Source: Basidiobolus meristosporus CBS 931.73 | Taxonomy: Eukaryota > Basidiobolomycota > Basidiobolomycetes > Basidiobolales > Basidiobolaceae | NCBI GenBank assembly: GCA_002104905.1 | Contig: MCFE01000116.1 | Location: 100,132-164,131, forward strand | DNA: 64,000 bases | Reading direction: 5' to 3' | Part shown: positions 142-23,041 of the stretch, piece after piece | Numbering within the stretch: position 1 is the first letter of the stretch | Layout: every line of letters begins with the position of its first letter | Program-made: the position numbers and the translations under genes | Notes under the pieces: model-generated | Database searches by the model: none | The model's input: the letters and a program-made list of their open reading frames with translations, nothing else | Told to the model about the DNA's origin: nothing

Positions 142-325
142 TTCTTGGAATCAGAACATGACTTGAGGATGATGACGACCTTTGATGTAACACGCAAGGT
201 GATTTTAGAATATCATCATCCTATAGCTTTTCAACGATTAGTTGCATCTTGTGGCACCAATAGTTCTGGGAATCAGAAATCGCCAGCCCGTGATTCCTAG
301 AAGCCAGAATCAATGCACATAAATA
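142..325 (+). promoter_or_regulatory. A-class promoter: three TTC-N3-GAA sites and TATA box
   Basis: Palindromic TTC-N3-GAA sites at 142-150 (TTCTTGGAA), 264-272 (TTCTGGGAA) and 294-302 (TTCCTAGAA), followed by a TATA-like cataaata at 318-325, about 90 bases before the start at 412. The same arrangement recurs before the other A genes with changed middle bases. Confidence 0.6.
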
Positions 326-411: not shown

Positions 412-642
412 ATGAGACTCTTTGCTGTACTCACTACTTGTATCGTTGCCACAATGACAGCTAATGGCTACCCCGTAAATCAGGTGACTGATGGAGTAGC
501 GATGGAAAAGAGAGATCTGCACGACTTTTGTGGAGGCTGGTTCTGCGGCCATGTGAAGCGTGATCACACAGTCCATGACAGTCAGACTACTACATCTTCT
601 CTGAGCTCACATCAGCCTAACACCCTAATGACAGCTGAATAA
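412..642 (+). CDS. A-class secreted cyclic-peptide precursor, copy 1
   Basis: 76-residue precursor. Residues 1-19 are a signal peptide (MRL then a hydrophobic run to TANG), 20-34 a short pro-region ending Glu-Lys-Arg, 35-48 the core DLHDFCGGWFCGHV with Cys40 and Cys45, 49-50 a second Lys-Arg, then a Ser/Thr-rich tail of 26 residues. Dibasic pairs on both sides imply Kex2-type excision in the secretory pathway. The two Cys could close a six-residue ring. Poly(A) signal AATAAA at 797-802. No intron. I recognise no named family. It resembles fungal alpha-type pheromone precursors in logic (signal, KR, short peptide), not in core sequence. Confidence 0.9.
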   Translation: MRLFAVLTTCIVATMTANGYPVNQVTDGVAMEKRDLHDFCGGWFCGHVKRDHTVHDSQTTTSSLSSHQPNTLMTAE

Positions 643-1159
643 GGTACCACCAAGTCAAGATGTTAATTCTCCCAAATGTGTCTCTGCCCGTTCTTCAAGC
701 CCATTTGATTTTGAATCCGTAATTTGGGCAAGATCTACCACCAATGTGATTACATAATACCCTTTGAATCCCCAATTTTGTATGCGTCTCGTAATCAATA
801 AATGGCGCATTGGTGCACAACTACATTTTCCTTTGATGATTGCTGCAAACTGTATTGACACACTGATAAACTAATAAGAGTATACTGTTCAGTATGCAAT
901 AAGCCTTACTCAATATTGGGACTTTAGTGGCAACCAGGACATCCATCAGCTTCACGAAGAAGTGACCCATTGAATATGCAGTCAATAAGCTGGCATTTCT
1001 AGATTTGATAAATGTGTTTGGAACAGTAAGTTAGACGAGCCCAATGAGGGATTCTCTTGCGGAGTGGAATACAGAGCATATGCTGTTGGACGATCCAGAA
1101 GCCATTTCCGGCATTGTAAAACCAGTCTGACCATATTGAGGGGATAGCGTCGGCGCTGC

Positions 1160-1240
1160 TTCGCAGAATAACCTGGCTACAAAAACCGGTTTGGATTTCC
1201 GGTAGAGGATTCCGAGAAGTGCGGCACGAAGTATATAAAT
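1160..1240 (+). promoter_or_regulatory. B-class promoter: two TTC-N3-GAA sites and TATA box
   Basis: TTCGCAGAA at 1160-1168 and TTCCGAGAA at 1210-1218, spaced 50 bases, then tatataaat at 1232-1240, about 70 bases before the ATG at 1309. Other B copies keep TTC and GAA while the middle three bases change (GCA or CTA at the first site; CGA or TGA at the second). Confidence 0.6.
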
Positions 1241-1308
1241 ATCTCTTGCGCTGATGAGCATTCAGTAAAATACAGCTTTGATATTTGAGAGATCACTACC
1301 AAACAATC

Positions 1309-1518
1309 ATGAAATTCGCCAGCGTACTTGTTATTCTTGCCGCTGTTTCTGCTACAGTTGACTGCTACCCATTGATCCTGGAGACTAGCGATTCAGCAGT
1401 GGACAAGAGAGATCTGCATGACTTCTGCGGAGGCTGGTTCTGTGGTCATGTCAAGCGTGAGGAAGCTCCGGAGACAAGTGAAGCCAATATCTCCACTCCA
1501 TCGATGTCAGTTGCCTGA
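1309..1518 (+). CDS. B-class secreted cyclic-peptide precursor, copy 2
   Basis: 69 residues. ATG at 1309 is chosen over an in-frame non-ATG extension from 1285, because that extension is transcribed leader just after the TATA box. The signal peptide is residues 1-18 (MKF start), followed by CYPLILETSDSAVD, Lys33-Arg34, the invariant core at 35-48, Lys-Arg at 49-50 and an acidic/Ser tail ending PSMSVA. The leader is unrelated in sequence to class A but identical in length to the core. AATAAA follows at 1667-1672. Confidence 0.9.
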   Translation: MKFASVLVILAAVSATVDCYPLILETSDSAVDKRDLHDFCGGWFCGHVKREEAPETSEANISTPSMSVA

Positions 1519-2217
1519 TGTGCACAGGCAGCACTGATGACAAGCCGATATCCAAATCCGAACTATCCAATTTTGTTGCTCCTGATAAATACCACACACG
1601 ACAAATTAAGCGTATCCATCCAACATCCTCCACATGGATTTTTGATTATCTGATAATTTCTCAAGAAATAAACATTGTCACCCCGCATTTCATATTTTCT
1701 CACGGCTACTAAACTAGCAGAGTGGAGGTCACTTGTATTCAGACCCATTCCCATATATTCCATATTGGAATGAGCTGATTTCAACTCTCCGAGGCACCTT
1801 TATTCCGCAATACAATGGCAATTTCGCGGTGAAAAGAATATTCACATATGGTCGCCGTCCAAGATCCGTTCAATGCACACCTCACAAAACCTCTTCAAAG
1901 TTACAGGTATGTCATAGGCACCATCATTGAATATTATGCACATGTCTGGGGTATTAAGCCGAATGAACTCTTGAGAAGCCAATATACGAAAAATAATAAA
2001 TATATCATACGACGATCAAGAATTCATTTCCAGTTTCCAAAATCAATCTAACCTTAATGGGGGATTGGTGGCCGCTTTGCTTCCTAGAATATCCCCGCTA
2101 CAACAATGGTATGAGTTTCAGGAGTGAAATGGATGGGAAGTATAAGAGGAACTCGTGCCGATTTGAGCTTATTAGAAGACAGTCTTTGATATCTTGGTAG
2201 TTCATTAAAAAAGAATC

Positions 2218-2418
2218 ATGAAATCCACCAACACACTTATTTTTATTGTCGCAGCTTCAGTAGCCATTGACTGCTACCCATCGATTGTGGAGACTAGCAA
2301 CTCAACTTTGAACAAGAGAGATCTACATGACTTCTATGACCATGTCAAGCGGGAGAGACTTCTGGAGACAAGTGAAGAAATTACATCCACCTCACAAGGC
2401 CATATTTTGTACTATTAG
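2218..2418 (+). pseudogene. B-like precursor with the core deleted
   Basis: Open frame of 66 residues with a diverged B leader (MKSTNTL start, still CYP at 19-21 and Lys-Arg at 33-34). The core is cut to DLHDF-YDHV: an in-frame loss removes both Cys and the Gly-Gly-Trp-Phe ring, while the flanking Lys-Arg pairs survive. The TTC-N3-GAA site (2081-2089) and promoter remain. It belongs to the older, divergent part of the array. Probably non-functional as a source of the ring peptide, though a linear peptide could in principle still be made. Confidence 0.75.
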
Positions 2419-3133
2419 CCTACTCGACTGTCGCACTGACACATTACTGACTGCCCTCATGCCTGCTTTCAACTGTTGCATTAACGTATTCTTGACCGCT
2501 CGTCACGCCTGATTAATTTTTGAATCCGCAATTTCAGCGAGAATATCACCAATATTTGAATATTCAATTTTGTTGACATATTGTAGTCAATAAACAGGGT
2601 ACTAGGGCGTAGTGATACCCTCTGTTGATGGAACGACCTGTTAGTATGTGCTCATGGTTGAATGTCAGCATTTGGCTCAGTATGCCACAAATCCTTACAT
2701 AAATGGCTTTGTCTCCAACATGTCCAATGCGCATGAATCATACCAGGGGCCGTACCATAGTGCGCACGTTTCACCAGCGTATATGACTCTTCAGATTTGC
2801 CATTATATAGTATATATCATTACTGAAGTTAATAAATATGTTTGGAGCAATTAACTATGGGAAATCTCTGAGGTTATTTTGCCCACTGGATCATAATGAG
2901 TATGCTGTTTGCCGATCAGGAAGCTATTTCCGGTTTTTCGATACCGGTGTGACTATACCGAGTGCTTGGCGTCCGCTTTGCTTCCTAGAATATCGCTGCT
3001 GCAATAACTAGTTTAGATATCCCCTGGGAAAGTACCAATATGTGTTGTAAGAAGAGTATAAATAGAACTCTTGCCGATCCATATTCAGTAGTACACGGCG
3101 TTTGATATCTTGAGAGATCATTATACTCTACAC

Positions 3134-3302
3134 ATGAAGTTCACCCAGCATGCTTGTCGCGATTTCTGCCTCTTCAGTAGCTGTTGACTGCTACCCATTG
3201 ACCCTGGAGACTAGCGAGTCCGCAGTGAACAAGAGAGATCTGCATGACTTTTGTGGAGGCTGGTTCTGTGGACATGTGAAACGGGATGATGACCTCGGGT
3301 AA
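3134..3302 (+). pseudogene. B-like precursor, frameshifted in the signal peptide
   Basis: ATG at 3134, but one extra C in the fifth codon region throws the signal peptide out of frame, and TGA soon follows. Downstream, the correct frame still reads leader, Lys-Arg, the complete core, Lys-Arg and a short tail DDDLG ending at TAA 3300-3302. A TTC-N3-GAA site (2982-2990) and a TATA-like box upstream are preserved. A single-base sequencing error cannot be excluded, but the surrounding copy is divergent, so decay is the simpler reading. Confidence 0.7.
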
Positions 3303-3780
3303 AATGCAGACAAAATCTCGGTCTTGCATATGCCCAATATCTAAAGTGATCAGACCGCGCCTATGGTTACAATCTCAGGACCAAGAACTCGAAGGAAATC
3401 TACCGCCGGAATACATCAATTTTACTGTATTTTATAATCACCATGGCAGATTAGCTAAACGTATCCTCCCACCTCCGCATGGAGTTTTATTTGGTGACGA
3501 GCTCCTATAAAATAAACAATACAACTCCATAATCCACTATCCGTATTGCTTTAACCTTTAGCAAAGCAACTACTCATACTTCAGCTCGTCGCATTTTCAC
3601 CAAGTTTGCTTGACCCAAAGATGGTAAAGATCCTCCCTACAGGATTTGGACTATACAAATATCATCAGTCATTCCATATCCGATATTACTTCTGTTGTGG
3701 ATATCCTGTTTACTAACACTCTGATATTCCCAAGAGTGCTTCCTTTGCTTATGAAATACTGAGGTCTGCCCAGACAGACA

Positions 3781-3926
3781 TTCTAGGAATAAGGATGTAA
3801 CATGATGATGATTCACACGGTCAATTTAGTTTCAGTATAGTATTTTTGTGCTTGACTTTCATCCAGTACATGATGTGCAACCAAAAATTCTGGGAACAAG
3901 GAATCACTACCACAGGATTCCAAGAA
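3781..3926 (+). promoter_or_regulatory. Diverged A promoter retaining three TTC-N3-GAA sites
   Basis: TTCTAGGAA 3781-3789, TTCTGGGAA 3888-3896 and TTCCAAGAA 3918-3926 are kept although the surrounding sequence differs substantially from the other A promoters. A TATA-like box (catatata) follows near 3940. Confidence 0.55.
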
Positions 3927-4034
3927 GCCTAAATCAGCGTACATATATAGCTTACTAATAGCGATGCCATTCCACAGTCTACAACCTCTCTTCGAATATC
4001 ATATTCTTCCCCTGCCAATTATTGAGCCAAAACC

Positions 4035-4265
4035 ATGAGACTCGTTACTATACTTACTATTTGTATTGTATCTGCAATAACAGCTAACGGCTACCCCATG
4101 ACTTCGCTGACTGATGAAGTGGCCATGGACAAGAGAGATCTGCACGACTTTTGCGGAGGTTGGTTCTGCGGTCATGTAAAGCGTGAGCGCAGCATCCTTG
4201 ATAGCCAGGCTACTACCACTCCTCTGGGCACAAATCAGCCCGATATCCTCACGATAGCTCAATAA
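4035..4265 (+). CDS. A-class precursor, diverged copy
   Basis: 76 residues. The leader differs from copy 1 at many positions (MRLVTILTIC start; pro-region MTSLTDEVAMD), and the tail is changed to ERSILDSQATTTPLGTNQ-type sequence. The core at 35-48 and both Lys-Arg pairs are unchanged. The contrast between a drifting leader and tail and a fixed core makes this copy informative about selection. Confidence 0.9.
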   Translation: MRLVTILTICIVSAITANGYPMTSLTDEVAMDKRDLHDFCGGWFCGHVKRERSILDSQATTTPLGTNQPDILTIAQ

Positions 4266-4932
4266 GAGACCACTAAGACAATATGACACTTCTACCGAAT
4301 ACTTCCCTGCCTGTTCTTCACGCCCAATTGATTTTGAATCCGTATTTGGGCAAGATCCACCACCAATGTGATTACATAATACCCTTTGAATCCCCAATTT
4401 TGTATACATCTCGTAATCAATAAATGGCGCGTTGGTGCACAACTACATTCTCCATTGATGATTGCCGCAAACTGTATTGTAACACTGATAAACTAATAAG
4501 AGTATACTGTTCAGTATGCAATAAGCCTTACTCAATATTGGGACTTTAGTGGCAACCAGGACATTCATCAGCTTCACGAAGAAGTGACCCACTGAATATG
4601 CAGTCAATAAGCTGGCATTTCTAGATTTGATAAATGTGTTTGGAGCAGGAAGTTAGATGAGCCCGATGAGAGATTCTCATGCGGAGTGGAAAACAGAGCA
4701 TATAAGCTGTTCGACGATCCAGAAGCCATTTCCGGCATTGTAAAACCAGTCTGACCATATTGAGGGGATAGCGTCGGCGCTGCTTCGCAGAATAACCTGG
4801 CTACAAAAACCGGTTTGGATTTCCGGTAGAGGATTCTGAGAAGTGCGGCACGAAGTATATCAATGTCTCTTGCGCTGATTAGCATTCATTAAAATACAGC
4901 TTTGATATTTGAGAGATCACTACCAAACAATC

Positions 4933-5142
4933 ATGAAATTCGCCAGCGTACTTGCTATTCTTGCCGCTGTTTCTGCGACAGTTGATTGCTACCCATTGAT
5001 ACTGGAGACTAGCGATTCAGCAATGGACAAGAGAGATCTGCATGACTTCTGCGGAGGCTGGTTCTGTGGTCATGTCAAGCGTGAGGAAGCTCCGGAGACA
5101 AGTGAAGCCAATATCTCCACTCCATCGATGTCAGTTGCCTGA
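4933..5142 (+). CDS. B-class precursor
   Basis: 69 residues, nearly identical to the copy at 1309 (Val8 becomes Ala; pro-region SAMD before Lys-Arg). Core intact, tail ends PSMSVA. ATG at 4933 follows a TATA box and the paired TTC-N3-GAA sites. Confidence 0.9.
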   Translation: MKFASVLAILAAVSATVDCYPLILETSDSAMDKRDLHDFCGGWFCGHVKREEAPETSEANISTPSMSVA

Positions 5143-5817
5143 TGTGCACAGGCAGCACTGATGACAAGCCGATTTCCAAATTTAACTATCCAATTTTGTT
5201 GCTCCTGATAAATACCACACACGACAAACTAAGCGTATCCATCCATCCATCCTCCACATGCATTTTTGATAATCTGACAATTTCCAGTGAAATAAACATT
5301 GCTACCCCGCATTTCATATTTTCTCACGGCTATTGAACTAGCGAAGTGAAAGTCACTTGTATTCGGACCCATTCCCGTATATTCCATGCTGAGATGAGCT
5401 GATTTCAACCCTACCAGGCACCTTTATTCCGTAATACAATGGTAATTTCGCGGTGAAAAGAAGATTCACATATGGTTGCCGACCCAGCTTTCCTCTATTC
5501 CCCAGAGGATTTCCCCTACTCTTGAAAGGTTGACATCTGCGCAGCCAAACATTCTAGGAATCAGAACATGACTTGAGGACGATGACCATCTTTGATGTAA
5601 CACGCAAGGTGATTTTAGTTTATCATCATCCTATAGCTTTTCAACGATCAGTTGCATTTTGTGGCACCAATAGTTCTGAGAATCGGAAATCGCCAGCCTG
5701 AGATTCCAAGAAGCCAGAATCAATGCACATAAATAGCTCACTAACGACACTGCCATTCATCAGCCTGCAGCCTTTCTGTTAAGTAACAAATTCTACTTGA
5801 GCATTTGAACCTAAGCC

Positions 5818-6048
5818 ATGAGACTCATTGCTGTACTCACTACTTGTATCGTTGCCACAATGAGAGCTAATGGCTACCCCGTAAATCAGGTGACTGGTGG
5901 AGTAGCCATGGAAAAGAGAGATCTGCACGACTTTTGTGGAGGCTGGTTCTGAGGTCATGTGAAACGTGATCACACAGTCCATGACAGTCAGACTACTACA
6001 CCTTCTCTGAGCTCACATCAGCCTAACACCTTCATGACAGCTCAATAA
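5818..6048 (+). pseudogene. A-class precursor with stop codon at the second core Cys
   Basis: Same frame and length as the other A genes, but codon 45 is TGA (5950-5952) in place of TGC/TGT, so translation would end after DLHDFCGGWF. One base destroys the second Cys, the downstream processing site and the tail. The rest is otherwise intact, suggesting a recent loss. Confidence 0.9.
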
Positions 6049-6715
6049 GGTGCCACCAAGTCAAGATATTAATTCTCCCAAATGTGTCTGTGCCGTTCTT
6101 CAAGCCCATTTGATTTTGAATCCGTAATTTGGGCAAGATCTACAACCAATGTGATTACATAATACCCTTTGAATCCCCAATTTTGTATACATCTCGTAAT
6201 CAATAAATGGCGCGTTGGTGCACAACTACATTCTCCTTTGATGATTGCCGCAAACTGTATTGACACACTGATAAACTAATAAGAGTATACTGCTCAGTAT
6301 GCAATCAACCTTTCTCAATATTGGGACTTTGGTGGCAACCAGGACATTCATCAGCTTCACGAAGAAGTGACCCATTGAATATGCAGTCAATAAGCTGGCA
6401 TTTCTAGATTTGATAAATGTGTTTGGAGCAGGAAGTTAGATGAGCCCGATGAGAGATTCTCATGCGGAGTGGAAAACAGAGCATATATGCTGTTCGACGA
6501 TCGAGAAGCCATTTCCGGTATTGTAAAACCAGTCTAACCATATTGAGGGGATAGCGTCGGCGCTGCTTCGCAGAATAACCTGGCTACAAAAATCAGTTTA
6601 GATTTCCGGTAGAGGATTCTGAGAAGTGCGGCACGAAGTATATAAATGTCTCTTGCGCTGATTAGCATTCAGTAAAATACAGCTTTGATATTTGAGAGAT
6701 CACTACCAAACAATC

Positions 6716-6925
6716 ATGAAATTCGCCAGCGTACTTGCTATTCTTGCCGCTGTTTCTGCGACAGTTGATTGCTACCCATTGATCCTGGAGACTAGCGATT
6801 CAGCAGTGGACAAGAGAGATCTGCATGACTTCTGCGGAGGCTGGTTCTGTGGTCATGTCAAGCGTGAGGAAGCTCTGGAGACAAGTGAAGCCAATATCTC
6901 CACTCCATCGATGTCAGTTGCCTGA
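6716..6925 (+). CDS. B-class precursor
   Basis: 69 residues; leader as in the 4933 copy with SAVD before Lys-Arg; core intact; tail EEALETSEANISTPSMSVA. It lies exactly 1783 bases after the previous B gene. Confidence 0.9.
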   Translation: MKFASVLAILAAVSATVDCYPLILETSDSAVDKRDLHDFCGGWFCGHVKREEALETSEANISTPSMSVA

Positions 6926-7600
6926 TGTGCACAGGCAGCACTGATGACAAGCCGATTTCCAAATTTAACTATCCAATTTTGTTGCTCCTGATAAATACCA
7001 CACACGACAAACTAAGCGTATCCATCCATCCATCCTCCACATGGATTTTTGATTATCTGACAATTTCCAGTGAAATAAACATTGCTACCCCGCATTTCAT
7101 ATTTTCTCACGGCTATTGAACTAGCGAAGTGAAAGTCACTTGTATTCGGACCCATTCCCGTATATTCCATGCTGAAATGAGCTGATTTCAACCCTACCAG
7201 GCACCTTTATTCCGTAATACAATGGTAATTTCGCGGTGAAAGGAATATTCACATATGGTTGCCGACCCAGCTTTCCTCTATTCCCCAGAGGATTTTCCCT
7301 ACTCTTGAAAGGCTGACATCTGCGCAGCCAAACATTCTAGGAATCAGAACATGACTTGAGGATGATGACCATCTTTGATGTAACACGCAAGGTGATTTTA
7401 GAATATCATCATCCTATAGCTTTTCAACGATCAGTTGCATTTTGTGGCACCAATAGTTCTGAGAATCAGAAATCGGCAGCCTGGGGTTCCAAGAAGCCAG
7501 AATCAATGCACATAAATAGCTCACTAACGACACTGCCATTCATCAGCCTGCAGCCTTTCTGACAAGTAACAAATTCTACTTGAGCATTTGAACCTAAGCC

Positions 7601-7831
7601 ATGAGACTCATTGCTGTACTCACTACTTGTATCGTTGCCACAATGACAGCTAACGGCTATCCTGTGGGTCGGCTAGCCAATGATGTAACCAAGGAGAAGA
7701 GAGATCTGCACGACTTTTGTGGAGGTTGGTTCTGTGGCCATGTGAAGCGTGATCACACAGTCCATGACAGTCAGACTACTACATCTTCTCTGAGCTCAAA
7801 TCAGCCTAACACCTTCATGACAGCTGAATAA
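7601..7831 (+). CDS. A-class precursor with converted pro-region
   Basis: 76 residues; core intact. The signal peptide and tail match copy 1, but residues 22-34 (VGRLANDVTKEKR) match the second A subtype found from 12.6 kb onward. The nucleotide tract between the two is likewise of the other subtype, so this is a mosaic, most simply explained by gene conversion or unequal crossover. Confidence 0.9.
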   Translation: MRLIAVLTTCIVATMTANGYPVGRLANDVTKEKRDLHDFCGGWFCGHVKRDHTVHDSQTTTSSLSSNQPNTFMTAE

Positions 7832-8498: not shown

Positions 8499-8654
8499 AT
8501 GAAATTCGCCAGCGTACTTGTAATTCTTGCCGCTGCTTCAGCAACAATTGACTGCTACCCATTGATCCTGGAGACTAGCGATTCAGCAATGGACAAGAGA
8601 GATCTGCATGACTTCTGTGGAGGCTGGTTCTGTGGTCATGTCAAGCGGGAGTAA
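8499..8654 (+). CDS. B-class precursor with truncated tail
   Basis: 51 residues. The leader is a B variant (AAASATID). The core and both Lys-Arg pairs are complete, but a TAA follows one residue after the second Lys-Arg where other B copies have a further ~19 residues. If processing needs only the dibasic pairs, the product should be the same 14-mer. Promoter and TATA are present; the second TTC-N3-GAA site is degraded (CTCCGAGAA). Confidence 0.8.
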   Translation: MKFASVLVILAAASATIDCYPLILETSDSAMDKRDLHDFCGGWFCGHVKRE

Positions 8655-9109
8655 GATCTGGAGACAAGTGAAGTCGAAATACCCACCTCACCTATGCCAA
8701 ATCTCTAATGTGCACGGGCAGTATTAATAATGATACGATATTTCAACCCGAACTCACCAATTTTGTTGCTTCTGATAAACACTATGCATGATAAGCTAAG
8801 CGTAGCTTTCCATCCTCCGCATGGAATTTTGATTTTCTGATGGCTTTCTATGAAATAAACAATATAATCCCACGTTCCCAAGTTTCATATTGCTATTCAA
8901 CCAGCAGAGTAAAGACCGCTCATATGTAATCCTATGCAATTTAGTTTCATGTTGACGAGGTGTCGCTAGTGAAGCTCCAACCAATCAGAATTGAACTCAA
9001 AGTATATCTTCCTGATATGAATAGTACTTTTGCTGTGAACTTGATATCGACATATGGTCACCGACCAAGATTCCAAATATTCCCAAGAGTACTTCCCTCA
9101 CTTGTGAAG

Positions 9110-9166
9110 CTACCAACCCTCCTCTGAGCTCACATCAGCCCGACACCCCCACAATAGCTCAACAAG
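9110..9166 (+). pseudogene. A-class 3' fragment
   Basis: Sequence matching the A tail (CCTCTGAGCTCACATCAGCC and a following stop-region similar to the 4035 copy), continuing into the standard A 3' region with AATAAA. Leader, core and promoter are missing. This explains the 3115-base gap between the A genes at 7601 and 10716: most of one A gene was deleted from this unit. Confidence 0.75.
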
Positions 9167-9830: not shown

Positions 9831-10040
9831 ATGAAATTCGCCGGCGTACTTGCTATTCTTGCCGCTGTTTCTGCGACAGTTGATTGCTACCCATTGATCC
9901 TGGAGACTAGCGATTCAGCAGTGGACAAGAGAGATCTACATGACTTCTGCGGAGGCTGGTTCTGTGGTCATGTCAAGCGTGAGGAAGCTCTGGAGACAAG
10001 TGAAGCCAATATCTCCACTCCATCGATGTTAGTTGCCTGA
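9831..10040 (+). CDS. B-class precursor
   Basis: 69 residues, KFAG start variant (Ser5 to Gly), core intact, tail ends PSMLVA. It lies 1332 bases after the previous B gene because the intervening A gene is deleted. Confidence 0.9.
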   Translation: MKFAGVLAILAAVSATVDCYPLILETSDSAVDKRDLHDFCGGWFCGHVKREEALETSEANISTPSMLVA

Positions 10041-10715: not shown

Positions 10716-10946
10716 ATGAGACTCATTGCTGTACTCACTACTTGTATCGTTGCCACAATGACAGCTAATGGCTACCCCGTAAATCAGGTGACTGATGGAG
10801 TAGCCATGGAAAAGAGAGATCTGCACGACTTTTGTGGAGGCTGGTTCTGTGGCCATGTGAAGCGTGATCACACTGTCCATGACAGTCAGACTACTACATC
10901 TTCTCTGAGCTCACATCAGCCTAACACCTTCATGACAGCTGAATAA
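10716..10946 (+). CDS. A-class precursor
   Basis: 76 residues, leader and tail of the copy-1 type (pro-region VNQVTDGVAME), core intact. Promoter of the first A subtype with TATA-like cataaata. Confidence 0.9.
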   Translation: MRLIAVLTTCIVATMTANGYPVNQVTDGVAMEKRDLHDFCGGWFCGHVKRDHTVHDSQTTTSSLSSHQPNTFMTAE

Positions 10947-11613: not shown

Positions 11614-11937
11614 ATGAAATTCGCCAGCGTACTTGCTATTCTTGCCGCTGTTTCAGCAACAATTGACTGCTACCCATTGATCCTGGAGACTAGCTTTGAT
11701 ATTTTGAGATATTTCTACAGAACAATCATGAAATTCGCCAGCGTACTTGTAATTCTTGCCGCTGCTTCAGCAACAATTGACTGCTACCCATTGATCCTGG
11801 AGACTAGCGATTCAGCAATGGACAAGAGAGATCTGCATGACTTCTGTGGAGGCTGGTTCTGTGGTCATGTTAAACGGGAGGAAGCTCTCGAAGCCAATGG
11901 AGCCATAACTTCAGCCTCAGGAATGCCAAATGCCTGA
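11614..11937 (+). CDS. B-class precursor with duplicated leader
   Basis: From ATG 11614 the frame encodes 107 residues: a complete B leader through LILETS, then the translated former 5' leader (FDILRYFYRTI), then a second complete B leader starting at ATG 11728, followed by one intact core and the tail TSASGMPNA. From 11728 it is a normal 69-residue precursor. A 114-base in-frame duplication of the leader and its 5' leader sequence explains it and accounts for the longer 1909-1910 spacing here. Which ATG is used is open; the first lies closest to the promoter. Confidence 0.85.
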   Translation: MKFASVLAILAAVSATIDCYPLILETSFDILRYFYRTIMKFASVLVILAAASATIDCYPLILETSDSAMDKRDLHDFCGGWFCGHVKREEALEANGAITSASGMPNA

Positions 11938-12625
11938 TGAGCATAGACTACACTAATGACGAGCTGATATCCAAGCCCAAATTCAGGTTCAAGTAATCCT
12001 ACCACCCAAACTCTCCAATTTTGTTGCTACTGATGCACGATCAGCTAAGCGTAACCATCCAGCCTCTGCATGGATTTTTGATTTCCTGATAATATACTAC
12101 AAAATAAACAATATATCTCCACATTCCAAATATCCGTTTTGTTGCTTAACCAGTAGGGTAAAAACCCCTCGTTTGCGAGTCCTTGCCATTTTGTTCCATT
12201 CCGACATGATGTCCTAAATGAACATCTATTCGGGCATGTTCAAACTCCACCAACATCCTCCTGTAAATTCTGTTGCAAGCTTGATATCTACATATCGGCA
12301 CTGATCAAGGCCTCCAGTATCCACAGGAGTTCTCTGCTTACTTATGAAATTCTGAGGTCTGTGCTGCCGAGAATTTCAGGAATCGGAATATGATGTGAAG
12401 ATAATTCACAATCTCAATCCAATAAACAAGACTGTTTCAGGACATCATTTCAGTTTACTTTCCGTCCGTGGTATCTTGTGCGACCAACAATTCTGGGAAT
12501 CAGTAATTGCCACTCTGGGATTCCTAGAACTCCCAAGAAATGTACATAAATCGCTCCCCAACGAACCATCATTCCTCAGGCTACAGCCTTGCTATCGAAT
12601 ACCAAACTCTTCCCCGACCGGAATA

Positions 12626-12856
12626 ATGAGACTCCTTTCTGTACTCGCTGTTTGTATCATTTCTGCAATGACAGCTAACGGCTATCCTGTGGGTCAGCTA
12701 GCCAATGATGTAACCAAGGAGAAGAGAGATCTGCATGACTTTTGTGGAGGTTGGTTCTGTGGCCATGTGAAGCGTGATCTCTCTGTTCATGACAGCCAGA
12801 CTACTACATCTTCTCTGAGCTCACAGCAGCCTAAAACCTTCATGACCGCTCTATAA
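12626..12856 (+). CDS. A-class precursor, second subtype
   Basis: 76 residues. MRLLSVLAVC leader with pro-region VGQLANDVTKE, intact core, tail DLSVHDSQTTTSSL-type ending in Leu. An open extension in the same frame starts at 12395, but it contains the TATA-like cataaatc and the TTC-N3-GAA sites, so ATG 12626 is preferred: it restores the signal peptide and the fixed 34-residue leader. Confidence 0.9.
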   Translation: MRLLSVLAVCIISAMTANGYPVGQLANDVTKEKRDLHDFCGGWFCGHVKRDLSVHDSQTTTSSLSSQQPKTFMTAL

Positions 12857-13522
12857 GGTACCACCAAGTCAAGATGTTAATTGTCCCGAATACGTCTCTG
12901 CCCGTTCTTCATGCCCATTTGATTTTGAATCCGTAATTTGGGCAAGATCTACCACCAATGTGATTACACAATACCCTTTGAATCCCCAATTTTGTACGCG
13001 TCTCGTAATCAATAAATGGCGCGTTGGTGCACAACTACATTCTCCATTGATGATTGCCACAACTTGTAATGGCATATTGATAGCTTAATAAGAGCATACT
13101 TCTCAGCATGAAATAAACCTTTCTCATTATTATGATATTAGTGGTAACCAGATCATTCATTAGCCTCATGTAGAAGTGACCCATTGAATATGCAGTTAAT
13201 AAGCTGGCATTACTAGATTTGATTAATGTGTTTGGAGCAGGAAATTAGATGAGCCCGATGAGAGGTTCTAGTGCGGAGTGAAAAATAGAGCATATGCTGT
13301 TCAACGATCCAGAAGCCATTTCCGGTTTTCTAAAACCAGTCTGACCATATTGAGGGGATAGTGTCAGCGTTGCTTCCTAGAATAACCTGGCTACAAAAAC
13401 CGGTTTGGATTTCCAGTAGTGGGTTCCGAGAAGTGCAGCACGGAGAATATAAATGTCCCTTGCGCTGATCAGCATTCAGTAGAGGACAGCTTTGATATTT
13501 GAGAGATCATTACCAAACAATC

Positions 13523-13732
13523 ATGAAATTCGCCGGCGTACTTGTTATTCTTGCCGCTGTTTCTGCCACAGTTGACTGCTACCCATTGATCCTGGACACT
13601 AGCAATTCAGCAGTGGACAAGAGAGATCTGCATGACTTCTGCGGAGGCTGGTTCTGTGGTCATGTCAAGCGAGAGCAAGTTCTGGAGACAAGTGAAGCCA
13701 ATAACTCCGCTCCATCGATGTCAAATGCCTGA
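13523..13732 (+). CDS. B-class precursor
   Basis: 69 residues, KFAG leader variant, pro-region LDTSNSAVD, core intact, tail EQVLETSEANNSAPSMSNA. Its promoter has tataaat preceded by 'agaa' (less perfect TATA than neighbours). Confidence 0.9.
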   Translation: MKFAGVLVILAAVSATVDCYPLILDTSNSAVDKRDLHDFCGGWFCGHVKREQVLETSEANNSAPSMSNA

Positions 13733-14412: not shown

Positions 14413-14643
14413 ATGAGACTCTTTGCTGTACTCACTATTTGTATCGTTGCCACAATGACAGCCAATGGCTACCCCGTAAATCAGGTGACTGATGGAGTAG
14501 CCATGGAAAAGAGAGATCTGCACGACTTTTGTGGAGGCTGGTTCTGTGGCCATGTGAAACGTGATCACACTGTCCATGACAGCCAGACTACTACATCTTC
14601 TCTGAGCTCACAGCAGCCTAATACCTTCATGACAGTTCAATAA
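14413..14643 (+). CDS. A-class precursor, first subtype
   Basis: 76 residues, VNQVTDGVAME pro-region, core intact, tail ends FMTVQ. A first-subtype gene between second-subtype genes at 12626 and 16208, so the two A subtypes are interspersed rather than blocked. Confidence 0.9.
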   Translation: MRLFAVLTICIVATMTANGYPVNQVTDGVAMEKRDLHDFCGGWFCGHVKRDHTVHDSQTTTSSLSSQQPNTFMTVQ

Positions 14644-15309: not shown

Positions 15310-15519
15310 ATGAAATTCGCCAGCGTACTTGCTATTCTTGCCGCTGTTTCTGCGACAGTTGATTGCTACCCATTGATCCTGGAGACTAGCGATTCAGCAG
15401 TGGACAAGAGAGATCTGCATGACTTCTGCGGAGGCTGGTTCTGTGGTCATGTTAAACGGGAAGTAGTCACCGATGCCAGTGGATCCTTAACTTCAGCCTC
15501 AGGAATGCCAAATGCCTGA
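15310..15519 (+). CDS. B-class precursor
   Basis: 69 residues; standard B leader and core; tail EVVTDASGSLTSASGMPNA. The 3' region is of the second type (starting GCATAGACT after the stop). Confidence 0.9.
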   Translation: MKFASVLAILAAVSATVDCYPLILETSDSAVDKRDLHDFCGGWFCGHVKREVVTDASGSLTSASGMPNA

Positions 15520-16207
15520 TGAGCATAGACTGCACCAATGACGAGCTGATATCCAAGCCCAAATTCAGGTTTAAGTAATCCTACCACCCAAACTCTCCAA
15601 TTTTGTTGCTACTGATGCACGATCAGCTAAGCGTAACCATTCAGCCTCTGCATGGATTTTTGATTTCCTGATAATATACTACAAAATAAACAATATATCC
15701 CCACATTCCAAATATCCGTTTTGTTGCTTAACCAGTAGGGTAAAAACCCCTCGTTTGCGAGTCCTTGCCATTTTGTTCCATTTCGACATGATGTCCTAAA
15801 TGAACATCTATTCGGGCATGTTCAAACTCCACCAACATCCTCCTGTAAATTCTCTTGCAAGCTTGATATGTACATATCGGCACTGGTCAAGGCCTCCAAT
15901 ATCCACAGGAGTTCTCTGCTTACTTATGAAATTCTGAGGTCTGTGCTGCCGACAATTTCAGGAATCGGAATATGATGTGACGATGATTCACAATCTCAAT
16001 CCAATAAATAAGACTGTTTCGGGACATCATTTTAGTTTACTTTCCATCCGTTGTATCTTGTGCGACCAACAATTCTGGGAATCAGTAATTGCCACTCTGG
16101 GATTCCTAGAACTCCCAAGAAATGTACATAAATCGCTCCCCAACGAACCATCATTCCTCAGGCTACAGCCTTGCTATCGAATACCAAACTCTTCCCCGAC
16201 CGGAATA

Positions 16208-16438
16208 ATGAGACTCCTTTCTGTACTCGCTGTTTGTATCATTTCTGCAATGACAGCTAACGGCTATCCTGTGGGTCAGCTAGCCAATGATGTAACCAAG
16301 GAGAAGAGAGATCTGCATGACTTTTGTGGAGGTTGGTTCTGTGGCCATGTGAAGCGTGATCTCTCTGTCCATGACAGCCAGACTACTACATCTTCTCTGA
16401 CCTCACAGCAGCCTAAAACCTTCATGACCGCTCTATAA
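16208..16438 (+). CDS. A-class precursor, second subtype
   Basis: 76 residues; differs from the 12626 copy mainly by Ser to Thr in the tail (SSLTSQQ). Core intact. The same upstream open extension is present from 15977. Confidence 0.9.
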   Translation: MRLLSVLAVCIISAMTANGYPVGQLANDVTKEKRDLHDFCGGWFCGHVKRDLSVHDSQTTTSSLTSQQPKTFMTAL

Positions 16439-17104
16439 GGTACCACCAAGTCAAGATGTTAATTCTCCCGAATTCGTCTCCGCCCGTTCTTCATGCCCAT
16501 TTGATTTTGAATCCGTAATTTGGGCGAGATCCACCACCAATGTGATTACATAATACCCTTTGAATCCCCAATTTTGTACGCGTCTCGTAATCAATAAATG
16601 GCGCGTTGGTGCACAACTGCATTCTCCATTGATGATTGCCACAAGTTGTAACGGCATACTGATAGCTTAATAAGAGTATACTTTTCAGCATGTAATAAAC
16701 CTTTCTCATTATTATGATATTAGTGGTAACCAGATCATTCATTAGCCTCATGTAGAAGTGACCCATTGAATATGCAGTTAGTAAGCTGGCATTACTAGAT
16801 TTGATTAATGTGTTTGGAGTAGGAAATTAGATGAGCCCGATGAGAGGTTCTAATGCGGAGTGAAAAATAGAGCATATGCTGTTCAACGATCCAGAAGCCA
16901 TTTCCGGCATTGTAAAACCAGTCTGACCATATTGAGGGGATAGTGTCAGCGTTGCTTCCTAGAATAACCTGGCTACAAAAACCGGTTTGGATTTCCAGTA
17001 GTGGGTTCCGAGAAGTGCAGCACGGAGTATATGATTGTCCCTTGCGCTGATCAGCATTCAGTAGAGGACAGCTTTGATATTTGAGAGATTACTACCAAAC
17101 AATC

Positions 17105-17314
17105 ATGAAATTCGCCAGCGTACTTGCTATTCTTGCCGCTGTTTCAGTGACAATTGACTGCTACCCATTGATCCTGGACACTAGCAATTCAGCAGTGGAC
17201 AAGAGAGATCTGCATGACTTCTGCGGAGGCTGGTTCTGTGGTCATGTTAAACGGGAGGAAGCTCTCGAAGCCAATGGAGCCATAACTTCAGCCTCAGGAA
17301 TGCCAAGTGCCTGA
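17105..17314 (+). CDS. B-class precursor
   Basis: 69 residues; leader variant VSVTID and LDTSNSAVD, core intact, tail EEALEANGAITSASGMPSA. The TATA region reads GTATATGATT rather than TATATAAAT, which could weaken this promoter. Confidence 0.9.
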   Translation: MKFASVLAILAAVSVTIDCYPLILDTSNSAVDKRDLHDFCGGWFCGHVKREEALEANGAITSASGMPSA

Positions 17315-18002
17315 TTAGCATAGACTACACTAATGACGAGCCGATATCCAAGCCCAAATTCAGGTTTAAGTAATCCTACCACCCAAACTCTCCAATTTTG
17401 TTGCTACTGATGCACGATCAGCTAAGCGTAACCATCCAGCCTCTGCATGGATTTTTGATTTCCTGATAATATACTACAAAATAAACAATATATCCCCACA
17501 TTCCAAATATCCGTTTTGTTGCTTAACCAGTAGGGTAAAAACCCCTCGTTTGCGAGTCCTTGCCATTTTGTTCCATTCCGACATGATGTCCTAAATGAAC
17601 ATCTATTCGGGCATGTTCAAACTCCACCAACATCCTCCTGTATATTCTCTTGCAAGCTTGATATCTACATATCGGCACTGATCAAGGCCTCCAGTATCCA
17701 CAGGAGTTCTCTGCTTACTTATGAAATTGTGAGGTCTGTGCTGCCGACAATTTCAGGAATCGGAAAATGATGTGACGATGATTCACAATCTCAATCCAAT
17801 AAATAAGACTGTTTCGGGACATCATTTTAGTTTACTTTCCATCCGTTGTATCTTGTGCGACCAACAATTCTGGGAATCAGTAATTGCCACTCTGGGATTC
17901 CTAGAACTCCCAAGAAATGTACATAAATCGCTCCCCAACGAACCATCATTCCTCAGGCTACAGCCTTGCTATCGAATACCAAACTCTTCCCCGACCGGAA
18001 TA

Positions 18003-18233
18003 ATGAGACTCCTTTCTGTACTCGCTGTTTGTATCATTTCTGCAATGACAGCTAACGGCTATCCTGTGGGTCAGCTAGCCAATGATGTAACCAAGGAGAA
18101 GAGAGATCTGCATGACTTTTGTGGAGGTTGGTTCTGTGGCCATGTGAAGCGTGATCTCTCTGTTCATGACAGCCAGACTACTACATCTTCTCTGAGCTCA
18201 CAGCAGCCTAATACCTTCATGACAGTTCAATAA
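18003..18233 (+). CDS. A-class precursor, second subtype
   Basis: 76 residues; VGQLANDVTKE pro-region, intact core, tail ending FMTVQ as in the 14413 gene, so the tail comes from a different lineage than its leader (mosaic). Confidence 0.9.
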   Translation: MRLLSVLAVCIISAMTANGYPVGQLANDVTKEKRDLHDFCGGWFCGHVKRDLSVHDSQTTTSSLSSQQPNTFMTVQ

Positions 18234-18900
18234 GGTACCACCAAGTCAAGATGTTAATTGTCCCGAATACGTCTCTGCCCGTTCTTCATGCCCATTTGAT
18301 TTTGAATCCGTAATTTGGGCGAGATCCACCACCAATGTGATTACACAATACCCTTTGAATCCCCAATTTTGTATACATCTTGTAATCAATAAATGGCGCA
18401 TTGGTGCACAACTACATTTTCCTTTGATGATTGCCACAAGTTGTAATGGCATACTGATAGCTTAATAAGAGTATACTGTTCAGCATGCAATCAACCTTTC
18501 TCAATATTGGGACTTTGGTGGCAACCAGGACATTCATCAGCTTCACGAAGAAGTGGCCCATTGAATATGCAGTCAATAAGCTGGCATTTCTAGATTTGAT
18601 AAATGTGTTTGGAGCAGCAAGTTAGATGAGCCCGATGAGAGATTCTCATGCGGAGTGGAAAACAGAGCATATATGCTGTTCGACGATCGAGAAGCCATTT
18701 CCGGCATTGTAAAACCAGTCTGACCATATTGAGGGAATAGTGTCAGCGCTGCTTCCTAGAATAACCTGGCTACAAAACCGGTTTGGATTTCCGGTAGAGG
18801 ATTCCGAGAAGTGCGGCACGGAGTATATAAATGTCCCTTGCGCTGGTCAGCATTCAGTAGAGGACAGCTTTGATATTTGCGAGATCACTATCAAACAATC

Positions 18901-19110
18901 ATGAAATTCGCCAGCGTACTTGCTATTCTTGCCGCTGTTTCTGCGACAGTTGATTGCTACCCATTGGTCCTGGAGACTAGCGATTCAGCTGTGGACAAGA
19001 GAGATCTGCATGACTTCTGCGGAGGCTGGTTCTGTGGTCATGTTAAACGGGAGGAAGCTCTCGAAGCCAATGGAGCCATAACTTCAGCCTCAGGAATGCC
19101 AAGTGCCTGA
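18901..19110 (+). CDS. B-class precursor
   Basis: 69 residues; LVLETSDSAVD pro-region, intact core, tail EEALEANGAITSASGMPSA. Promoter with TATATAAAT. Confidence 0.9.
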   Translation: MKFASVLAILAAVSATVDCYPLVLETSDSAVDKRDLHDFCGGWFCGHVKREEALEANGAITSASGMPSA

Positions 19111-19798
19111 TTAGCATAGACTACACTAATGACGAGCTGATATCCAAGCCCAAATTCAGGTTCAAGTAATCCTACCACCCAGACTCTCCAATTTTGTTGC
19201 TACTGATGCACGATCAGCTAAGCGTAACCATCCAGCCTCTGCATGGATTTTTGATTTCCTGATAATATACTACAAAATAAACAATATATCCCCACATTCC
19301 AAATATCCGTTTTGTTGCTTAACCAGTAGGGTAAAAACCCCTCGTTTGCGAGTCCTTGCCATTTTGTTCCATTCCGACATGATGTCCTAAATGAACATCT
19401 ATTCGGGCATGTTCAAACTCCACCAACATCCTCCTGTAAATTCTGTTGCAAGCTTGATATCTACATATCGGCACTGATCAAGACCTCCAATATCCACAGG
19501 AGTTCTCTGCTTACTTATGAAACTCTGAGGTCTGTGCTGCCGAGAATTTCAGGAATCGGAATATGATGTGAAGATGATTCACAATCTCAATCCAATAAAC
19601 AAGACTGTTTCAGGACATCATTTCAGTTTACTTTCCGTCCGTGGTATCTTGTGCGACCAACAATTCTGGGAATCAGTAATTGCCACTCTGGGATTCCTAG
19701 AACTCCCAAGAAATGTACATAAATCGCTCCCCAACGAACCATCATTCCTCAGGCTACAGCCTTGCTATCGAATACCAAACTCTTCCCCGACCGGAATA

Positions 19799-20029
19799 AT
19801 GAGACTCCTTTCTGTACTCGCTGTTTGTATCATTTCTGCAATGACAGCTAACGGCTATCCTGTGGGTCAGCTAGCCAATGATGTAACCAAGGAGAAGAGA
19901 GATCTGCACGACTTTTGTCGAGGTTGGTTCTGTGGACATGTGAAGCGTGATCTCTCTGTCCATGACAGCCAGACTACTACATCTTCTCTGAGCTCACAGC
20001 AGCCTAATACCTTCATGAGAGTTCAATAA
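19799..20029 (+). CDS. A-class precursor with variant core (Gly41Arg)
   Basis: 76 residues. The core reads DLHDFCRGWFCGHV: GGA became CGA in the first ring glycine. Flanking Lys-Arg pairs are unchanged. This is the only copy with a full ring length but altered ring residue. Tail ends FMRVQ. Confidence 0.9.
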   Translation: MRLLSVLAVCIISAMTANGYPVGQLANDVTKEKRDLHDFCRGWFCGHVKRDLSVHDSQTTTSSLSSQQPNTFMRVQ

Positions 20030-20701
20030 GGTACCACCAAGTCAAGATGTTAATTGTCCCGAATACGTCTCCGCCCGTTCTTCAAGCCCATTTGATTTTG
20101 AATCCGTATCCATAATTTGGGCAAGATCCACCACCAATGTGACTACATAATAACCTTTGAATCCCCAATTTTGTATGTGTCTCGTAATCAATAAATGGCG
20201 CGTTGGTGCACAACTACATTCTCCTTCGATGATTGCCACAAGTTGTAATGGCATACTGATAGCTTAATAAGAGTATACTTCTCAGCATGAAATAAACCTT
20301 CCTCATTATTATGATATTAGTGGTAACCAGATCATTCACTAGCTTCACGAAGAAGTGACCCACTGAATATGCAGTCAATAAGCTGGCATTACTAGATTTG
20401 ATTAATGTGTTTGGAGCAGGGAATTAGATGAGCCCGATGAGAGGTTGTAATGCGGAGTGAACAATGGAGCATATGCTGTTCAACGATCCAGAAGCCATTT
20501 CCAGTATTGTAAAACCAGTCTGACCATATTGAGGGGATAGTGTCAGTGTTGCTTCCTAGAATAACCTGGCTACAAAAACCGGTTTGGATTTCCAGTAGCG
20601 GGTTCCGAGAAGTGCAGCACGGAGTATATAAATGTCTCTTGCGCTGATCAGCATTCAGTAGAGGACAGCTTTGATATTTGAGAGATCACTACCAAACAAT
20701 C

Positions 20702-20896
20702 ATGAAATTCGCCAGCGTACTTGCTATTCTTGCGGCTGTTTCTGCGACAGTTGATTGCTACCCATTGGTCCTGGAGACTAGCGATTCAGCAGTGGACAAG
20801 AGAGATCTGCATGACTTCTGCGGAGGCTGGTTCTGTGGTCATGTTAAACGGGAAGTAGTCACCGATGCCAATGGATCCTTAACTTCAACCTCATGA
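20702..20896 (+). CDS. B-class precursor, shortened tail
   Basis: 64 residues; core intact; tail EVVTDANGSLTSTS then TGA, where the homologous 15310 copy has a TCA codon (C to G change) and continues as GMPNA. Confidence 0.9.
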   Translation: MKFASVLAILAAVSATVDCYPLVLETSDSAVDKRDLHDFCGGWFCGHVKREVVTDANGSLTSTS

Positions 20897-21601
20897 ATGC
20901 CAAATGCCTGATGAGCATAGACTGCACTAATGACGAGCTGATATCCAAGCCCAAATTCAGGTTCAAGTAATCCTACCACCCAAACTCTCCAATTTTGTTG
21001 CTACTGATGCACGATCAGCTAAGCGTAACCATTCAGCCTCTGCATGGATTTTTGATCTCCTGATAATATACTACAAAATAAATAATATATCTCCACATTC
21101 CAAATATCCGTTTTGTTGCTTAACCAGTAGGGTAAAAACCCCTCGTTTGCGAGTCCTTGCCATTTTGTTCCATTCCGACATGATGTCCTAAATGAACATC
21201 TATTCGGACATGTTCAAACTCCACCAACATCCTCCTGTAAATTCTCTTGCAAGCTTGATATCTACATATCGGCACTGATCAAGGCCTCCAATATCCACAG
21301 GAGTTCTCCGCTCACTTATGCAAATTCTGAGGTCTGTGCTGCCGAGAATTTCAGGAATCGGAAATATGATGTGACGATGATTCACAATCTCAATCCAATA
21401 AACAAGACTGTTTCAGGACATCATTTCAGTTTACTTTCCGTCCGTGGTATCTTGTGCGACCAACAATTCTGGGAATCAGTAATTGCCACTCTGGGATTCC
21501 TAGAACTCCCAAGAAATGTACATAAATCGCTCCCCAACGAACCATCATTCCTCAGGCTACAGCCTTGCTATCGAATACCAAACTCTTCCCCGACCGGAAT
21601 A

Positions 21602-21817
21602 ATGAGACTCCTTTCTGTACTCGCTGTTTGCATCATTTCTGTAATGACAGCTAACGGCTATCCTGTGGGTCAGCTAGCCAATGATGTAACCAAGGAGAAG
21701 AGAGATATGCATGACTTTTGTGGAGGTTGGTTCTGTGGCCATGTGAAACGAGAAGATGACCAGGAGTCAAGTAAAGACAGACTTCAGACCTCAATCTTGG
21801 ATATGGCAAATATCTAA
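21602..21817 (+). CDS. A/B chimeric precursor with Leu36Met core
   Basis: 71 residues. Promoter, signal peptide and pro-region are A second subtype; after the second Lys-Arg the tail (EDDQESSKDRLQTSILDMANI) and the 3' region are B-like, closest to the frameshifted copy at 3134. The core is DMHDFCGGWFCGHV. It is the last unit of the regular array and appears to be a recombination junction between an A gene and an old B gene. Confidence 0.85.
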   Translation: MRLLSVLAVCIISVMTANGYPVGQLANDVTKEKRDMHDFCGGWFCGHVKREDDQESSKDRLQTSILDMANI

Positions 21818-22347
21818 TGTGCCCACGCCACACCAATGGTCAACCGCCTTCCAAATCCATGTCCTTCTTCAAATACCCTAACTACTGAACGCCAATTTTG
21901 TTGCTCTCAATAACTGCATAGCCTAATTCGCCAAGTCTACCTATTCACCCTCCGTATATGTTTTTGACATTATCATGATTATCTATAAAATAAACAATAT
22001 AGCTCCACATTGCACCTCTTGCTGTTCAACACACAACAACGCTCTTAATGACACTCATTAAAACCCGCTACCCAACAACATTGCTCAACTTTTTCACTCA
22101 CCATTTACAGTGGCTGTTGGGCTATAGTTGCACATTTCTTGGAGATTGGTCAACGAGATACGACACATCTGTAGTCCTGTATTATTGGCACGCGCCCTCT
22201 CTCAGATATCTCATGTTGCCACGTTTGGGACTACTACTATGAGACCTGGCCCTACGCTTTGCTTGAGCTGAGTTCGTGAATAATTCTAACAAGTTCAATT
22301 TGGATTAGCGTGGTCTGTGCTTCCAATAATTGTGCCGAAATTGATGC

Positions 22348-22774
22348 TTCCGAGAAGACTTGTCTGAGTTCTACGAAAGTTGGCTCTATGTCAATGCTTT
22401 GCATAAGCGTAGCAGTTATGCAAGTCACGTCGATCAGCCATACTCGGGTTTCAACTGCACTGCATGGAGTTTAATATGCTAGTAATGTCGGTCGTGTGGA
22501 ACTCCTCAATAACGATGGGACTCAGGTATTTTCAGAAGCTCTAACCACCACCTGAGCGACCATGACTCGCGTAATTTTAGATGTAGATTGAGGGTGATCG
22601 TGTTAACACTAGTATTGTCTAAAAATAGGGGGCAAAGGCCTAGGATCAAACATGGGATTCTACTGATCTGGCTTCCGTGTGGCATTCGTTTGTTCTTGAA
22701 ACTATGCAATTCGAGTGATTACGAAATATCCTGAGCACCATACTTCCAAGAAGCAATATGTAGGCTATATAAAT
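22348..22774 (+). promoter_or_regulatory. C-class promoter: TTC-N3-GAA sites and TATA box
   Basis: TTCCGAGAA at 22348-22356 and TTCCAAGAA at 22744-22752, with tatataaat at 22766-22774, about 50 bases before the ATG. Apart from these elements the upstream sequence shows no obvious similarity to the A or B promoters. Confidence 0.5.
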
Positions 22775-22822
22775 CATCATACGTTAGCTCAGTTTCCTAC
22801 AAGCTATTGCTGTTCAACAAGC

Positions 22823-23041
22823 ATGAAACTGATCAATATTATTACAATTCTGGCTACTCTCACCATGATTACAGCTGGCCTTCCACTGGCCCAACAGAGC
22901 CAGGATTCGGCGGGAGACAAGAGAGATCTTCATGATTTCTGTGGAGGCTGGTTCTGCGGCCATGTAAAGCGTGCGAACATCAACAAAATCGACTCACTAA
23001 CTCTGGACTTGATTGACCCAGTTGAGCTACCTTGGGTCTGA
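22823..23041 (+). CDS. C-class precursor, single diverged copy at array edge
   Basis: 72 residues from ATG 22823; an in-frame upstream ATG at 22715 is rejected because the TATA box lies after it. Signal peptide MKLINIITIL... to ITAG, then LPLAQQSQDSAGD, Lys33-Arg34, the intact core, Lys-Arg, and a tail (ANINKIDSLTLDLIDPVELPWV) unlike A or B. Core codons differ synonymously from both A and B. This is an independent lineage of the same peptide gene, outside the duplicated unit. Confidence 0.9.
   Translation: MKLINIITILATLTMITAGLPLAQQSQDSAGDKRDLHDFCGGWFCGHVKRANINKIDSLTLDLIDPVELPWV

Follow-up and report, generated by a model that had tools for sequence, protein, structure and literature searches.

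What is made by a fungal locus in which gene after gene presents the same 14-residue peptide, and what might such a peptide be for? The question is raised by a stretch of 64,000 nucleotides (the window; C180:100132-164131, C180 being the window's contig) from the 89-Mb genome of Basidiobolus meristosporus CBS 931.73, which holds part of an array of small genes for secreted-looking precursors. The precursors share one layout: a hydrophobic leader at the N-terminus, then a short and variable pro-region, a Lys-Arg pair, a 14-residue core, a second Lys-Arg pair, and a variable tail.

The array and its core peptide

A scan of C180:70001-130000 and of the whole of a second contig, C53, found 55 loci of the family. 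C180 holds 37 of them, with core starts from 88684 to 123056, and C53 the other 18; a single strand holds all 55, and 42 of the 53 core-to-core gaps measure 885-917 bp. Twelve of the C180 loci sit left of the window, and the left end of the array lies at C180:88582, 11.5 kb left of the window. Precursor types A (MRL...GYP) and B (MKF...CYP) largely alternate (of 50 copies compared, 22 are A, 25 are B, and 3 are neither). Within the window, positions 412-23041 hold 25 loci with a core or core remnant, all on the + strand: in 20 a 34-codon leader precedes the exact core, two others remain open but carry one-residue variants, and three are broken or truncated; one leader fragment and one tail fragment are also present. 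The initial annotation had counted 22 open precursors, which is exact, and four broken loci, a figure that holds if one fragment is included and otherwise drops to three. Its account of one secreted-looking peptide between Lys-Arg pairs, amplified at the gene level, is supported, and the large array it described is real, its size being about twice what the window showed.

Because C53 consists almost entirely of array, with cores from position 571 to position 18019 of its 18882 bp, the true number of loci may exceed 55; genome similarity searches gave at least 53 matches each. That C53 merely duplicates C180 through the assembly was ruled out. The order of units differs between the two. With C53 divided into 20 pieces of 900 bp, the best C180 match was 94-98% identical for 19 pieces, some of these matches spanning only part of the piece, and 74% identical for one. 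By this comparison C53 may be either an allelic copy or a second array, and not the C180 stretch repeated.

The core is exactly DLHDFCGGWFCGHV in 43 of the 55 loci, 42 of these having the full 34-codon leader, and none of the 55 has more than one core. Eight loci carry changed cores in an open frame (DMHDFCGGWFCGHI twice, and DLHDLCGGSFCGHV, DLDDFCGGWFCGHV, DLHDFCAGWFCDHV, DLHDFCRGWFCGHV, DMHDFCGGWFCGHV, and DLHEFCGGWFCGHV once each), and four have a deletion or stop inside the core. One identical core peptide is preceded by 27 different leaders and is written in 17 DNA versions. Ratios of nonsynonymous to synonymous differences (pN/pS, as Nei-Gojobori proportions) were obtained for 50 copies, two loci without the 34-codon leader and three with the core deleted or stopped being excluded. 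In the core these were 0.031 for A-A pairs, 0.061 for B-B pairs, 0.021 for A-B pairs (pS 0.63), and 0.049 for pairs with the three others, against 0.51, 0.35, 1.07, and 0.58 in the signal region and 0.73, 1.10, 0.69, and 0.71 in the pro-region; the pairs are not independent, as the copies share descent, but the contrast of core and leader is one within the same genes. Eight diverged exact-core copies (28 pairs) differed by 1-7 synonymous codons in the core versus 3-25 replacement codons in the leader, the absence of core replacements being by choice in copies picked for an exact core and the synonymous changes being the informative part.

Both Lys-Arg pairs are invariant in all 50 copies, as are D1, C6, Gly8, Phe10, C11, and H13; His3, Trp9, and Gly12 are each kept in 49. 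Position 2 is Leu in 47 copies and Met in three, and Lys-Arg is followed by D-L/M-H in 49 of the 50. Because the leaders diverge while the core differences are synonymous, the identity of the peptide is attributed to selection and not only to recent copying, and the 17 DNA spellings together with the pN/pS contrast rule out chance or recent copying as its sole cause. On this comparative evidence, what selection keeps in the precursor is the core with the Lys-Arg pair on either side, and the family would represent gene-level dosage for one peptide whose sequence is kept by selection over dozens of copies.

Relatives of the family were found in a second species. A profile of 12 precursors matched five proteins of Basidiobolus ranarum, the best at E 2.1e-30, and the profile extended with those five matched sixteen more, giving a total of 21. 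Two cores are present in 20 of these and one core in the remaining one, so that the rule of one core per gene put forward for the array stands in B. meristosporus and fails in B. ranarum. The core DLHDLCGRWFCGHT, which makes up 30 of the 41 B. ranarum cores, differs from the main B. meristosporus core at positions 5, 8, and 14 and is the same at the other eleven; His3 is present in 40 of the 41, and in P0016 the second core has decayed, with loss of Trp9 and Cys11. The best matches of P0008 are array-edge copies (window 22823-23041 and C180:88582), and all of its matches listed in the genome (at least 53) lie on C180 and C53. The B. ranarum locus tags run consecutively (012427-012432, 013232-013236, 016715-016717, and 000096-000097), which suggests that these genes are clustered too. 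With the extended profile, a search listed 25 proteins at E <= 10: one belongs to the window itself, and the other 24 are named as Basidiobolus; such a search detects only relatives sharing short exact words, and the distribution beyond Basidiobolus could be wider. Judged from these matches, the family is so far known only in the genus, and the proposed search for relatives has thus yielded a B. ranarum family with matches confined to Basidiobolus in the searches run. The 55 loci, their regular spacing, the selection on the core, and the related B. ranarum family together exclude chance as the source of the pattern.

Two B. ranarum proteins, P0023 and P0024, have a third, diverged core-like C-terminal end, GLDRFC[GE]GWFC, that lacks a following Lys-Arg and is perhaps the trace of an internal duplication.

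Public gene models P0001, P0002, and P0004 of the array look wrong. P0001 fuses parts of a B gene and an A gene, and the other two, the short P0002 and P0004, conflict with the open frames and cut into the leader or just past the core. As the searches gave no further public models, many array copies may be unannotated. The Pfam match of P0001 to zf-RING_13, which would make it a zinc-finger protein, was rejected as an annotation: it spans a portion of the core plus the sequence just after it, lies above the cut-off only in this two-core model, falls below it on one single precursor, and is absent on another.

Predicted product and promoter element

The hydrophobic leader has small or Cys residues ahead of a Y/L-P boundary. 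An AlphaFold model of the precursor, with a mean predicted local distance difference test score (pLDDT) of 56.8, has a helix at residues 2-17, as expected of a signal peptide, and no confident fold in the rest, core included. As judged by homology, the B. meristosporus genome contains a kexin gene, in agreement with the Kex2 logic originally proposed for the array: the kexin-type P-domain gave seven matches at five places (C475 twice, C512, C588, and C591), and the frame L021:703-1668, which has a P-domain match, aligns to the solved yeast Kexin over 321 residues (E 6.3e-105). The five places perhaps represent more than one kexin gene.

The precursor would pass into the secretory pathway, where kexin would cleave after each Lys-Arg and a Kex1-type carboxypeptidase is predicted to remove the C-terminal Lys-Arg. 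In this oxidising pathway Cys6 and Cys11 would form a six-residue disulfide ring, and the 14-mer would be set free in large amount, with dosage increased through gene copies and not through core repeats. It is very probable, from the layout and conservation of the precursors, that the product is such a Kex2-excised, probably disulfide-ringed 14-mer. Its calculated mass in the oxidised form is 1590.63 ([M+H]+) or 795.82 ([M+2H]2+), and the oxidised B. ranarum peptide would give 1657.70 and 829.35, respectively.

The upstream regions of diverged types show poor alignment apart from a block, ATTCC-N-AGAAG, followed by a TATA-like box. In 54 of the 55 copies a TTCN3GAA palindrome lies no farther than 230 bp upstream of the start codon (42 copies have at least two sites), C180_96180 being the only copy without one. 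The C180 array contains 82 such sites where equal base use predicts 8.6, and C53 contains 38 against 4.6; outside the array there are 12 against 9.9 (window 23300-64000) and 7 against 4.4 (C180:70001-88000). The same half-sites with other spacers (0-2 and 4-8 bases) occur 3-26 times in the array, and because a repeat multiplies any chance site, the 82 are to be judged against 26 and not against 8.6. Among 111 sites between -600 and +250 in 52 copies, 88 fall at -150 to -76 and 15 more near -275 to -251. The copies are related, and the independent cases are therefore fewer than 54, yet the two types place their sites differently, about 30 bp apart in type A and about 50 bp apart in type B. By sequence, then, the array genes have a predicted TTCN3GAA promoter element in common. 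TTCN3GAA is also the form of animal STAT sites; a genome-wide search for a STAT regulator (PF02864) gave no match, the control being silent as well. A heat-shock element, in which the spacer is two bases, was set aside, as the spacer here is three.

Candidate roles

What, then, would the peptide do? We tentatively favor, as the most likely role suggested by the sequences, an extracellular signal, specific to the species and perceived by the fungus that makes it, in mating or development; it would work as the alpha-type pheromones of ascomycetes do, though it is not one of them. The near-identical core over dozens of genes and its shift between the species argue for recognition by one partner, since uniformity within a species and a shift between species are what is predicted for a signal tied to a single recognition partner. 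Several points weigh against this role. The evidence is that of sequence; confidence in the precursor model is low (mean pLDDT 56.8); and the identity of the core is not absolute, as 8 of the 55 loci encode changed cores and a few B. ranarum cores vary. Genome-wide searches for STE2 (PF02116), the cognate receptor of the alpha-type pheromones, and with a STE3 model gave no match, which counts only weakly, as the control genomes were silent too. Moreover, a frozen sequence and high dosage would suit a metal-binding or structural peptide equally. Expression data do exist, RNA-seq reads of CBS 931.73 having been aligned according to the available text of one study (PMC7466969).

A secreted metal-binding peptide, serving in scavenging or buffering or as a redox-active copper complex, is a possible though doubtful alternative. 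The amino-terminal Cu(II)/Ni(II) (ATCUN) site has the form Xaa-Xaa-His, and the kexin cut would expose just such an N-terminus, Asp-Leu-His, in which the Leu/Met variation at position 2 is permitted. The core also fits H-x2-C-x4-C-x-H, with D1, C6, C11, and H13 in 50 of 50 copies and His3 in 49 of 50 (40 of 41 in B. ranarum), and many genes would serve a stoichiometric need. The zinc-binding zf-RING_13 profile falls on the core together with the residues that follow, past its cut-off only in the two-core model. In the available text of one genomic study, siderophores are enriched and iron is important in Basidiobolus (PMC7466969). However, Gly8, Trp9, Phe10, and Gly12 are about as fixed as the ligands and metal binding alone needs none of them, and a disulfide would occupy both Cys.

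It is unlikely that the peptide is a small cyclic ligand directed at a receptor or channel of a host, in the vertebrate or insect gut. Its CX4C ring is a common form among hormones, and the core is frozen by selection; host-directed peptides, however, often diversify among copies, and the array cores do not. The core has no above-chance similarity to any solved chain, and the nearest vertebrate likeness that we can name would be an N-terminal Asp-x-His, as in hepcidin. In favor of such a role, Basidiobolus is an amphibian gut symbiont in the available text of PMC7466969.

Improbable, too, is a structural or surface-active role, in which the abundant peptide would assemble by itself on spores or aerial hyphae. 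The model for this would be the repellents of smut fungi, which are released by Kex2, and very many genes and a core rich in Gly, Trp, and Phe would suit it; the core, however, has 14 residues only, including two His and two Asp, and its near-strict identity (43 of 55 exact) exceeds what self-assembly should need. Least credible is an antimicrobial peptide, for although the product would be small, secreted-looking, and probably cyclic and its maker is a gut fungus, the copies do not diversify and the main B. meristosporus core is not cationic: it contains Asp1, Asp4, His3, and His13 but neither Lys nor Arg (a single Arg is present in the main core of B. ranarum).

We know of no peptide signal in this branch of fungi. 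It is a rather long shot that in Basidiobolus, a zoopagomycete lineage, the array encodes the first known peptide that signals or binds copper there. This would be a 14-mer closed by a disulfide ring and bearing a copper-site motif at its N-terminus, and the more than 40 genes that make it in parallel would share one palindromic control element; if so, it could be a metal-dependent pheromone or a secreted copper peptide for the vertebrate gut. As a candidate signal, the 14-mer is concrete and cheap to synthesize, with a known mass, a form conserved in two species, and a shared promoter element.

Neighboring genes and comparison with known systems

Table 1. Positions and strands of the array genes, fragments, and palindrome pairs in the window.
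Feature	Position	Strand
Type A precursor gene, core exact	412..642	+
Type B precursor gene, core exact	1309..1518	+
Broken copy, core mostly deleted (DLHDFYDHV)	2218..2418	+
Copy with core exact, leader shortened (no normal start)	3150..3302	+
Type A precursor gene, core exact	4035..4265	+
Type B precursor gene, core exact	4933..5142	+
Type A copy, broken by a stop codon within the core	5818..5952	+
Type B precursor gene, core exact	6716..6925	+
Type A precursor gene, core exact	7601..7831	+
Type B precursor gene, core exact, stop shortens tail	8499..8654	+
Tail fragment resembling the final part of a type A gene	9109..9162	+
Type B precursor gene, core exact	9831..10040	+
Type A precursor gene, core exact	10716..10946	+
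Leader-only fragment within a 114-bp tandem duplication	11614..11694	+
Type B precursor gene, core exact	11728..11937	+
Type A precursor gene, core exact	12626..12856	+
Type B precursor gene, core exact	13523..13732	+
Type A precursor gene, core exact	14413..14643	+
Type B precursor gene, core exact	15310..15519	+
Type A precursor gene, core exact	16208..16438	+
Type B precursor gene, core exact	17105..17314	+
Type A precursor gene, core exact	18003..18233	+
Type B precursor gene, core exact	18901..19110	+
Type A precursor gene, variant core DLHDFCRGWFCGHV (G7R)	19799..20029	+
Type B precursor gene, core exact	20702..20896	+
Type A precursor gene, variant core DMHDFCGGWFCGHV (L2M)	21602..21817	+
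Diverged edge copy, core exact; among this genome's best matches to B. ranarum P0008	22823..23041	+
TTCN3GAA palindrome pair (TTCTGGGAA, TTCCTAGAA) upstream of the 412 gene, then TATA-like box	264..302	.
TTCN3GAA palindrome pair (TTCGCAGAA, TTCCGAGAA) upstream of the 1309 gene, then TATAAATA	1160..1218	.

Beyond the array genes (Table 1), a gene for a heterotrimeric G-protein beta subunit (WD40_Gbeta) lies at window 27084-28289 (+), about 4 kb right of the array. Gbeta takes part in fungal pheromone signalling, and the proximity is perhaps a coincidence. Farther right are a secreted-looking protein with three Cys-rich repeats (38215-39039, +), another with NKR and GKR sites soon after the signal region (39192-39695, -), neither with a Pfam match, and a Ser/Thr-rich, mucin-like frame of 1990 residues (41115-47087, +). 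At 60661-62830 (-) there is what looks by eye like a long interspersed nuclear element (LINE)-type reverse transcriptase, its part 61880-62827 having no Pfam match. Left of the array, L016:8528-9715 (-) and L009:94-2151 (-) look by eye like pieces of a Copia-like retroelement, and L016:3472-4437 is a DDE transposase.

The peptide looks undescribed, in line with the initial annotation, which knew of no described peptide with this core. Literature searches found no paper with the core string, with CGGWFC, with TTCNNNGAA together with a fungus, or with ATCUN together with a fungal secreted peptide, and the available texts of PMC7329392, PMC10386755, PMC6733946, PMC7466969, and PMC6339444 do not describe it.

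Three known systems invite comparison. The dikaritin-type ribosomally synthesized and post-translationally modified peptides (ustiloxin, phomopsin, and asperipin) have a precursor with Kex2 sites, as in the array, and with a signal peptide, which for the array genes is a predicted one. According to the available text of PMC7329392, however, they have repeat precursors, cyclization factors of the DUF3328 (UstYa) family, and rings through Tyr, a residue found in none of the undeleted cores of either species. A genome-wide search for UstYa/DUF3328 (PF11807) gave no match with the control silent as well; because the controls were equally silent for STE2, STE3, and STAT, none of these four absences is established.

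The two-cysteine alpha-type pheromones of ascomycetes combine Kex2 logic with a short two-Cys peptide, as here, and Kex1 trimming is part of their processing. The Kex2 sites around a short core that characterize them are found in the array, with Lys-Arg on both sides in 50 of 50 copies and a kexin in the genome. Their core sequence, however, is unrelated: profile searches for homology of the core to alpha-pheromones gave Basidiobolus proteins only, such short peptides being hard to detect. Their precursors are also usually multi-core, with five repeats on average that often vary (PMC6339444, available text).

The Kex2-processed repeat proteins (KEPs) have a signal peptide, Kex2 sites, and short released peptides, as is predicted for the array genes, and among the strains covered in the available text of PMC7329392 their number is highest in B. 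meristosporus CBS 931.73 itself (43). KEPs as defined there require highly repeated sequences between Kex2 sites in one protein, and the pipeline of PMC6339444, as given in its available text, sets a minimum of four fragments per protein. The array genes differ in having one core, two Lys-Arg sites, and three fragments, and in being amplified as genes; with one core and three fragments, those of B. meristosporus would fall outside the published repeat-KEP definition as far as these texts give it. The two-core B. ranarum proteins stand near the KEP form and would satisfy the fragment count. Surveys that demand repeats within a protein would miss genes of this kind, so single-core Kex2 peptides may be widely overlooked.

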